Positions 21,858-25,210 of a stretch of 64,000 nt of DNA are shown one piece after another. The notes beneath the pieces are model-generated. The model ran no database searches. It was not told the origin of the DNA and saw nothing but the letters and a program-made list of their open reading frames with translations. The first letter of the stretch is position 1; every line of letters starts with the position of its first letter. The position numbers and the translations under genes were made by a program. Source of the stretch: Salinirubrum litoreum (GTDB lineage Archaea > Halobacteriota > Halobacteria > Halobacteriales > Haloferacaceae); contig NZ_JAJCVJ010000002.1 of assembly GCF_020567425.1 (NCBI RefSeq), positions 971,068-1,035,067 of the forward strand, given 5' to 3'.

Positions 21858-22499
21858 ATGGACGCGGTCTGTTTCGACATGGACGGGGTGATCGTCAACT
21901 CCGAGGAGTTCTGGCTGGCGTACGAGGAGGACACCATCTTCCCCCGGTCGCTCTCGGGCGAGTACCCACACACCGACGAGGTGACGGGGATGAACTACCG
22001 CGAGATATACGACTACCTCGCCGAGAACTACGCGGTGACGGTCTCCCGCGCCGAGTTCGAGGGTATCTACGAAGACGCCGCGAGCGACCTGTACGGCGAG
22101 CGCGTCGAACTGATAGACGGCTTCCTCGACGTGCTCGACGCGCTCCGGGAGCGAGAGGTGGCACTCGCCATCGTCTCCTCGTCGCCACAGGACTGGATCG
22201 GTATCGTCCGCGACCGGTTCGGACTCGATCCACTCGACGCGGTCGTCAGCGCCGACGACATCGACGCGCCCGGCAAACCCGAACCGCACATCTACGAACA
22301 CGCGGCCGACCGCCTCGGCCACGCACCGGCCGACTGCGTGGCCGTCGAGGACTCGGTGAACGGGACCGAGTCGGCCGACAGGGCGGGGATGACGGTCGTC
22401 GGCTACCGCGACGGACCGAACGCCGACACCGATCTGCCGGCCGCCGACCACGTCGCCGACGGCCCCGACGAACTGCGGCGACTGTTGCTCGACCGCTAG
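21858..22499 (+). CDS. HAD-superfamily hydrolase (beta-phosphoglucomutase-like)
   Basis: 213 residues. CFDMDGVIVNSEEFW (5-19) is motif I with the nucleophile Asp, IVSSS is motif II, GKPEPHIYEHAADRLG holds the motif III Lys, and VAVEDSVNGTESADRAGM is motif IV. A helical cap lies between motifs I and II, as in the beta-phosphoglucomutase/phosphatase group. It is a phosphatase or phosphomutase of unknown substrate. The ATG at 21858 is preceded only by a short gap shared with the divergent NucS-like gene. The stop overlaps the convergent small membrane gene. Confidence 0.9.
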   Translation: MDAVCFDMDGVIVNSEEFWLAYEEDTIFPRSLSGEYPHTDEVTGMNYREIYDYLAENYAVTVSRAEFEGIYEDAASDLYGERVELIDGFLDVLDALREREVALAIVSSSPQDWIGIVRDRFGLDPLDAVVSADDIDAPGKPEPHIYEHAADRLGHAPADCVAVEDSVNGTESADRAGMTVVGYRDGPNADTDLPAADHVADGPDELRRLLLDR

Positions 22500-22684
22500 A
22501 GTCGCTTGTAGATCGTCACGCCGACCGCGACGGCCGCGACACCGACACCGATCATCGTCGGCAGGTCGCCGCTGGAGCCACCGAACGACCAGCCGTAGAG
22601 GGCCGCACCGACGAGTGCGACCACGAAGACGACTGCGCCGACGAGTTGGAGGGTCGGCGAGTCGCTCCGACCGGCACCCGGCAC
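22496..22684 (-). CDS. Small two-helix membrane protein
   Basis: 62 residues from GTG 22684: a short polar N-terminus, transmembrane segments about 14-33 and 42-58, and a basic C-terminus (IYKRL). No family is recognised. Its last bases overlap the convergent HAD gene by four. It is separated from the Cys-rich gene by about 160 bases. Confidence 0.68.
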   Translation of the reverse strand: MPGAGRSDSPTLQLVGAVVFVVALVGAALYGWSFGGSSGDLPTMIGVGVAAVAVGVTIYKRL

Positions 22685-22842: not shown

Positions 22843-24258
22843 TTACGCGCAGATACAACAGCCACAGCCACAGCCGCCGCCACAGCCGATGATACAACAG
22901 CCACAGCCACAACCGATCTCCGTCCCGAGGCAGATACTACAGCCACAGCCACAGTCGGAACAACAGCTGAGTCCACAACAGCCACACTCACAGCTGGTCC
23001 CTTCGGTCGTCACCGACTGGGTGGACGTGTCGGAGGTCGCGGTCGGCGACTCGACGTACCGCGACCAGTGGGGCACACTGGAGATGCCCAGCGTGTTCGT
23101 CACGGGCGTCGTCTCGCCGTCGACGGCGTCGACGAACTCGGGGGCGACCGCCGCCAGGCGGTTCGCCAGCGAACCGTAGAGGTCGGCCATCTTCGTGTCC
23201 TTCGCGCCGGCGTAGTAGTCGCCGAGTGCCTGCATCCCGACGACGTAGGCGTCCATGTGTTCGGCGAGGTCCGCCTCGTAGTCCGTCTCCAGTTGGAGGA
23301 AGTCGACCGTCTTCTCCGGCACGTCGTGGTGGATCTTCCCCGAGAGTGTCTCCTCGACGGCCGACTCGCCGTCGATCACCATCGGCCCACGACCGAAGTT
23401 GAGACTCAGCCCGAAGCGATCGCGGTCGTCGACGAGCCCGTAGCGGTCCATCCGACCGGTCGTCGTCTCCGTGTCGCCACTCACTTCGATGGCCTGCTGG
23501 AGGGCGTCGTTCGAGTGCTCCGGCGTCACGTCGAGGGTCGCCGTGCTGATCTGGTGTGCGCCGGTCGTCTCGATCTTCCCGCTGTCGGCCGGCTCCATCT
23601 TCGCGGGCTGTTTCTTCTGGCTCTGAACCATCGGATCTTTGTCCTTCGTGAACGTCCGGTCGCGGACGAGACTCGCGTCCTCGGTGACGCTGGCGGTGAA
23701 GCCGCCGTCACCGTCCGGCGTGATGCGCGCGACGCGGGTGGTCAGTCCGTTCGGGGGGCGTGCTTTGAGCTGTTTGCCCTTCTTCTCGGGCGGACTCGTC
23801 AGGTCGAGGAGCGGCGAGGCGACCGACAGGGCGGTCGCGGACATCCCACTGGAGAAGGTCCGCCGCGAGAGGAGACCCCCGTCGTCCGCGTGATCGTGAT
23901 CGTGGTCGTGGTCTCCACCGCAGTCGCTCCCCTGGGTCTTGTACTCGGCGTACTCGCGGACGAGTCCCGCGAGGGTTCGCGTGCCGACCAGCTTTCGGAG
24001 CTTCGGAAGCGCCCGCGCACCCTTCCGCACCGTGTCGTCTTCGACCAGATAGAAGTCGTGGTCGGGGTCGTCGTAGAACTGCCCGAGGAGTCGGTCCGCC
24101 TCCGGGTCGCTCAGCGCGACCAACGAGAGGTCGTCTGCCGCCTCCCGGAGCTGAAACGCGAGTCGGTTGCAGATCTGACACTTCGCGTCGTAGAGGAGCG
24201 TCGGCGTCGTCTGTCGAGTCGTTGCAGGCGTCGACTGCTGTCTGGTACTGCTTGCCAT
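22843..24258 (-). CDS. DCC thioredoxin-like/Tat protein with 20-Cys C-terminal tail
   Basis: 471 residues in three parts. Residues 19-105 match the DCC thiol-disulfide oxidoreductase-like family (DUF393): LLYDAKCQICNRLAF has a CxxC at C27/C30. A His/Asp run (114-124) is followed by a Tat-like motif SRRTFSSG (131-138) with a weak hydrophobic stretch, which is unusual so far from the N-terminus. A middle region (~165-420) has no family I know. The last 49 residues contain 20 Cys, with CGCGC repeated three times before short Ile/Cys-rich ends. The layout recalls the halocin C8 precursor (Tat signal, immunity part, Cys-rich peptide) but the Cys pattern differs. It is divergent from an HTH regulator across an AT-rich gap. 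Confidence 0.85.
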   Translation of the reverse strand: MASSTRQQSTPATTRQTTPTLLYDAKCQICNRLAFQLREAADDLSLVALSDPEADRLLGQFYDDPDHDFYLVEDDTVRKGARALPKLRKLVGTRTLAGLVREYAEYKTQGSDCGGDHDHDHDHADDGGLLSRRTFSSGMSATALSVASPLLDLTSPPEKKGKQLKARPPNGLTTRVARITPDGDGGFTASVTEDASLVRDRTFTKDKDPMVQSQKKQPAKMEPADSGKIETTGAHQISTATLDVTPEHSNDALQQAIEVSGDTETTTGRMDRYGLVDDRDRFGLSLNFGRGPMVIDGESAVEETLSGKIHHDVPEKTVDFLQLETDYEADLAEHMDAYVVGMQALGDYYAGAKDTKMADLYGSLANRLAAVAPEFVDAVDGETTPVTNTLGISSVPHWSRYVESPTATSDTSTQSVTTEGTSCECGCCGLSCCSDCGCGCSICLGTEIGCGCGCCIIGCGGGCGCGCCICA

Positions 24259-24391: not shown

Positions 24392-24430
24392 CTTTGAAAC
24401 GTTGATATGGGTTCTAAGAGAGTGAATACA

Positions 24431-25210
24431 ATGGGCGACCTCACCACAGACGCACTGGATGCAGTCGTCACAGAGCGCGCCCGGTGTCTCCGGTCGCTGG
24501 TAGAGACTCCCCGGACGAAGCGGGACCTCGTCGACCTCCTCGGCTGTTCGAAGTCGACGGTCACGCGGGCACTCCGTGATCTCGGCGACGCTGGTCTCGT
24601 CGAACGCCGAGACGGGCAGTGGACGGCGACGCGGTTCGGTCGGTGTGTCGCCGGAACCAGACGCGCGTATCTCGATCGACTGTCGACGCTCTCGGACGCC
24701 GAGTCGTTGCTCGACGACGTTCCCGCCGACTGCCCGCTGGACTGTCGTGTCATCGACGAGGCCGACGTGTTCCTGGCCGACAGTTCGGTTCCGGACGCCG
24801 TCGTCCGGGAGTTCCTCGATCGGGTGGAGCCCAGCACCGACCTCCGGATCGCGACCCCGACGCTCCTCACCGGCTTCGCGCGTGAGTGTTACGAGCGACT
24901 GACGGCGACCGACGACTACGCGCTGGAACTCGTCGCCCCCGGATCGACGCTGGATCGTGTCGCCGGTGTCTACCCGGAGGTAGACGAACTGTTCACAGGA
25001 GACGACGCGATCGAGGTCTACCGTGGTGAAGTTCCGTTCTCCTTCGGCGTCTGGCTGGGGGACGACCACGTCGGCGTGTTGGTGTTCGCCGACCGGGGTA
25101 TCTCCGGGATCGTCGTCAACGACAGCGAGTCGGCGACCGAGTGGGCCGAACGACAGTACGACCGGGCACGCTCGACCGCGACACCGCTCACGCCACCACC
25201 GATCGAGTGA
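24431..25210 (+). CDS. Winged-HTH transcriptional regulator
   Basis: 259 residues. The N-terminal 70 form a winged helix-turn-helix (KRDLVDLLGCSKSTVTRALR, LVERRDGQWTATRFGR). The remainder (about 90-245) looks like the effector domain of haloarchaeal/methanogen FilR1-type regulators, with the conserved DLRIATPTLL and VYRGEVPFSFGVWLGDD patterns. Four Cys or His pairs are absent, so it is not a metal sensor of the ArsR type. It is divergent from the Cys-rich gene, and the shared 170-base gap contains a palindrome, so control of that gene is likely (inference). An ATG at 24407 would add eight residues but precedes the predicted transcription start. Confidence 0.85.
   Translation: MGDLTTDALDAVVTERARCLRSLVETPRTKRDLVDLLGCSKSTVTRALRDLGDAGLVERRDGQWTATRFGRCVAGTRRAYLDRLSTLSDAESLLDDVPADCPLDCRVIDEADVFLADSSVPDAVVREFLDRVEPSTDLRIATPTLLTGFARECYERLTATDDYALELVAPGSTLDRVAGVYPEVDELFTGDDAIEVYRGEVPFSFGVWLGDDHVGVLVFADRGISGIVVNDSESATEWAERQYDRARSTATPLTPPPIE

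Follow-up and report, generated by a model that had tools for sequence, protein, structure and literature searches.

A haloarchaeal protein family combining a DCC1-like domain, an internal Tat signal and a cysteine-rich tail, with a possible role as peptide precursor

A single reading frame of Salinirubrum litoreum encodes a DCC1-like, oxidoreductase-like head, an internal twin-arginine (Tat) signal and a cysteine-rich tail, and the 471-residue product belongs to a small, apparently undescribed family of haloarchaeal proteins. The gene (hereafter the Cys gene) lies in the stretch of 64,000 nucleotides that was analyzed (the window), where it starts with an ATG at 24258 and reads 24258→22843 on the minus strand; the coordinates given in the preliminary description, which left the strand unstated, are correct. 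No second copy is present in the S. litoreum genome, and PHROGs and PADLOC searches with the protein gave no match. We tentatively propose, as a reading just short of probable, that the protein is a Tat-exported precursor of a secreted Cys-rich peptide, in which a cytoplasmic thiol domain would act in cis, the released tail would be antagonistic, and the adjacent two-transmembrane (2TM) protein would serve as immunity factor or membrane partner.

Table 1. Features of the Cys gene and its surroundings (positions in the window unless a locus is named)
Feature	Position	Strand	Basis or relation
Whole Cys gene, 471 aa: DCC head, Tat signal, middle domain, Cys tail	22843..24258	(-)	six full-length members
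DCC1-like thioredoxin/glutaredoxin-fold domain, residues 19-104	23947..24204	(-)	PF04134 match and fold search
Linker with invariant C113 and His-Asp run, residues 105-130	23869..23946	(-)	family alignment
Internal Tat signal, residues 131-165, aligning to halocin C8 precursor Tat signals	23764..23868	(-)	alignment and profile comparison
Middle (propeptide-like) domain, residues 166-418, beta sheet and two long helices	23005..23763	(-)	predicted structure, family alignment
Cys tail, residues 423-471, 20 Cys, strong purifying selection	22846..22992	(-)	codon comparison with G167
2TM protein, 62 aa, sole copy in genome, 158 bp downstream of Cys gene	22496..22684	(-)	neighborhood comparison
Divergent HTH regulator	24407-25210		neighbor of Cys gene
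Small Tat lipoprotein near 2TM gene	L047 7570-7929; L049 7104-7496; also L085, L089, L115		

Family members and the cysteine tail

Family searches covering as many as about 1,880 genome entries (the searches overlap), together with two pattern scans across 84,980 species genomes, revealed five more full-length members and one remnant, all of them haloarchaeal. The full-length homologs, from Haladaptatus sp. DYF46 (G167), G293, the Halobacteriales MAG QS_1_68_20 (G008), an uncultured Halobacteria MAG (G397) and G488, are 32–52% identical to the S. litoreum protein and keep its layout; the order claimed in the preliminary description (DCC-like domain, internal RR, middle part, Cys tail) recurs in all six full-length members, which are spread over several haloarchaeal families. 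Tail Cys spacing separates two subfamilies, the first comprising the S. litoreum gene, G167, G293, G008 and the remnant in G394, and the second G397 and G488. Homologs keeping the DCC domain and lacking the tail, which the preliminary description had named as evidence against its claim, did not turn up, both parts being present in 6/6 full-length members. The sole partial copy goes the opposite way: the G394 remnant (L049, 8767-9144) consists of the last 120 residues only, without a start or DCC domain, and retains the Cys pattern intact next to a ribbon-helix-helix ORF. The earlier remark that no described family has this layout also stands, and neither the middle domain nor the tail falls within a Pfam or NCBIfam family.

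A single-protein pattern scan of genome contigs yielded 0 matches, an alignment-based scan of genome contigs returned three members only, all already found, and the viral contigs and plasmids scanned held no family member. When a CGCGCC DNA pattern was used to scan for other proteins with a similar tail, this family alone was recovered among plausible coding frames. One weak, tail-only match (L024, 1501-1959, minus strand, in G155) was rejected as a relative of the tail and is a different small Cys-rich protein; this short reading frame ('FTTQGSGIDCWVNC...') has no Pfam or NCBIfam match. In G209, a sister species of G293, the locus has flanks of 92-96% identity and lacks nothing but the Cys-gene segment. 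This empty site, at which no direct repeats were seen, marks the Cys gene as an accessory gene that has been gained or lost at a fixed locus.

The tail is the best-conserved portion of the protein. Its 49 residues, with 20 Cys and three CGCGC runs, are 94% identical to those of the closest homolog, G167, compared with 45–56% for the DCC and middle regions of the same pair. Codon differences from this Haladaptatus homolog within the tail comprise 26 synonymous and 3 non-synonymous changes, with 4, 3 and 26 substitutions at codon positions 1, 2 and 3, a pattern that excludes a chance or wrong-strand reading and therefore identifies the tail as a real, selected protein segment. Across the six full-length members the tails harbor 20, 20, 20, 26, 14 and 14 Cys, and 12 Cys positions are invariant in the family. 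Every count is even and the middle domain is free of Cys in every member, as expected if disulfides are confined to the tail.

DCC head, Tat signal and middle domain

The N-terminal 85 residues are a candidate relative of DCC1-like oxidoreductases (PF04134), with which they would share a DxxCxxC motif and a glutaredoxin-type fold. PF04134 matches residues 21-99 with E=2.6e-4 and 22.6 bits, below the Pfam gathering score of 27.8, and Foldseek places the head among glutaredoxin/NrdH folds with a probability of about 0.9, yet with all E-values above 0.02. The CxxC is formed by C27 and C30 within 'YDAKCQICN'. C30 is invariant across the family, and the full DxxCxxC motif is present in 5/6 members, C27 being replaced by Tyr in G167. 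In contrast to PF04134 relatives, the first Cys is thus not invariant in this family and a third, C113 in the linker, is. The usual haloarchaeal PF04134 proteins also differ in being mostly stand-alone proteins of about 150-200 residues that have no Cys tail. The His-Asp run of the linker is found in three members and is lost in G167 and subfamily 2 according to the family alignment.

The RR of the Tat signal (residues 132-133) is invariant in the family. The signal aligns to the Tat signals of HalC8 but sits behind a domain of 130 residues, and the placement of a Tat signal behind a folded domain of this size is unusual. The full-length protein is predicted with low overall confidence (pLDDT 63.6), its tail being disordered; the middle domain of ~250 residues is better predicted when modeled alone (pLDDT 77.8) and carries the conserved residues D278, R281, N287, H311 and D312. 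A structure search of the middle domain against the PDB gave no match.

Neighboring genes and comparison with halocin C8

A 2TM gene adjoins the Cys gene in 5/5 subfamily-1 loci, all of which have readable flanks. The encoded proteins are 61-67 residues long, and their genes lie 129-455 bp from the Cys gene in at least four arrangements (downstream or upstream in tandem, divergent, or convergent). In 4/5 subfamily-1 genomes the 2TM gene is single-copy, and G167 has one additional distant copy elsewhere. This adjacency, which is absent from the preliminary description, is in our view the strongest argument from gene context for reading the protein as bacteriocin-like. Specificity of the 2TM gene for Cys-rich loci is rejected, since 122/294 haloarchaeal genomes carry the 2TM family, nearly always without a Cys-rich neighbor, and inspection of 40 2TM loci disclosed no related neighbor; both subfamily-2 genomes lack it. 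The 2TM proteins beside Cys genes form no clade and are scattered over the family tree, which is a rough one, the proteins being short. The wide spread of the family without a Cys-rich gene may point to another job for the 2TM protein.

The 2TM family (60-67 residues) has a GW.F/W motif, and no curated family name was found for it. In several families, the vicinity of the 2TM gene includes a small Tat lipoprotein carrying 'NPDVVVFNRT' or a similar motif, whether a Cys gene is present or not. The HTH regulator divergent from the Cys gene was dropped as a part of the system because it is not conserved near other family members. In G488, a member of subfamily 2, an ABC-2 ATPase/permease pair is located directly upstream in tandem, and the best matches to this permease in seven congeners are just 39% identical.

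Halocin C8 is made as a 283-residue precursor that is exported by the Tat system and matures into HalI and HalC8 (PMC11509114). As the preliminary description proposed, the layout is shared: both families have a Tat signal, a propeptide or propeptide-like region and a C-terminal Cys-rich segment, and 18 Tat-signal columns align to halocin C8 precursors in a profile-profile comparison (P=0.001). That comparison gave no match of the middle domain or tail to the HalI propeptide or Cys core, and homology to halocin C8 outside the Tat signal is accordingly rejected. The TIGR04449 profile (halocin_C8_dom) matched the HalC8 peptide at 1.1e-16, and matched neither the 471-residue protein nor its tail. 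The difference in Cys spacing noted earlier also holds, halocin C8 having about 10 Cys over about 76 residues, no CGCGC runs and no DCC domain.

Among 28 halocin C8-like loci from a sample of 146 genomes, 12 have a ~60-residue 2TM ORF within 300 bp, compared with 2/59 and 0/30 loci in two control sets (Fisher p=1e-5 relative to the first set; leaving out near-duplicates raises p to about 3e-3 to 2e-4); an often adjacent small membrane-protein gene is thus a further shared feature. The 2TM proteins of the two groups are in general not homologous, with one weak match (E=1e-4). This common layout with an adjacent 2TM gene, in the absence of sequence homology, indicates two systems that are organized alike and are not homologous. 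The halocin C8-like precursors L156, L164, L167 and L176 carry an N-terminal extension ahead of the Tat signal, as do members of the present family; these extensions span 40-65 residues and have a 'GGGC.E.W'-like motif. Halocin C8-like genes (L151-L178) usually stand beside a small membrane-protein ORF of either two helices (about 60 residues) or four helices (120-136 residues). A pre-core 'V[ST]TQ' motif, chosen post hoc and to be read as a lead, is enriched ahead of halocin C8-like cores (10/25, compared with 4% of background windows) and occurs in 3/7 members of the present family. Another secreted haloarchaeal precursor, HapP/HFX_0892 of Haloferax, becomes antagonistic after proteolysis and has its active part in the helical N-terminus, with no mention of cysteine, disulfide or Tat signal in the text of the paper (PMC12893001).

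Possible roles of the cysteine tail

In the peptide-precursor reading, the DCC/glutaredoxin-fold domain would stay on the cytoplasmic side and handle the tail thiols in cis, oxidizing or protecting them via C30 together with either C27 or C113. Export of the middle domain and tail by the internal Tat signal would follow, the tail would become a compact, probably fully disulfide-bonded peptide, and this peptide, freed by proteolysis, would inhibit related haloarchaea, with the adjacent 2TM protein as putative immunity or membrane partner. Consistent with this proposal are the preserved layout, selection on the tail, the invariant RR, the linkage to 2TM, the halocin-like context, the accessory nature of the gene and the transporter pair in G488. 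Several observations speak against it. The tail has diverged less than its carrier, which is not the behavior of a fast-evolving toxin; G167 lacks C27 of the CxxC; the position of the Tat signal behind a folded domain is unusual; and the 2TM family often occurs alone, is absent from subfamily 2 and is in general not homologous to the 2TM proteins of halocin loci.

The composition of the tail is matched about as well by an exported metal-thiolate protein, the main alternative, which we consider unlikely though deserving of attention. In the cytoplasm the tail would fold around a soft metal, be it Cu(I), Zn(II) or another, in the manner of a metallothionein; the DCC domain and the His-rich linker would assist, and Tat would export the folded protein to sequester or deliver the metal. 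Tat does export proteins that fold with cofactors, and the Cys content of the tail (20 of its 49 residues), its CxC and CC spacing and its lack of aromatic residues are typical of metallothioneins; the strong conservation of the tail and the His-Asp run in three members fit as well. The Tat signal, the 250-residue middle domain and the DCC head are nonetheless foreign to metallothioneins, and the tail matched no metallothionein profile, sequence or PDB structure. The metal account is disfavored mainly because the His run is missing in G167 and subfamily 2, no consistent metal gene is found near any member, and the context is halocin-like. We judge it improbable that the protein is a structural or redox-relay component of the cell surface, with a tail that disulfides would crosslink internally or to partners at the surface, and a middle domain that is a functional ectodomain and not a propeptide. 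Such a role would agree with the conserved residues and fairly good prediction of the middle domain (pLDDT 78) and with a tail conservation above that expected of a diversifying toxin, but not with the rare, patchy distribution, the clean absence in a sister species and the lack of any known surface-protein fold. Gly-Cys repeats resemble azole-modified cores, and the tail with its repeats could be the core of a ribosomal natural product, into which a dedicated enzyme would introduce thiazoles or thioethers. This account is very improbable: no cyclodehydratase lies beside the Cys gene, as one does in YcaO-modified natural products, the single YcaO gene of the genome is on another contig and belongs to the same family as one in Haloferax volcanii, and no modifying enzyme is encoded in the flanks of any member.

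The peptide-precursor reading can be taken further, to a more doubtful proposal: the DCC domain would oxidize and proofread the 14-26 Cys of its own tail before Tat export, and the products would constitute a new class of disulfide-rich peptides with the 2TM protein as target or immunity factor. If the precursor reading is right, the family would add a second, unrelated architecture to the very few sequenced archaeal precursors of Cys-rich peptides, and would provide a test case for the folding of a disulfide-dense peptide ahead of Tat export, in which a putative oxidoreductase, an export signal and a cargo are carried on one chain and are separately mutable. It would also offer a possible function for a 2TM family present in ~40% of the haloarchaeal genomes searched.
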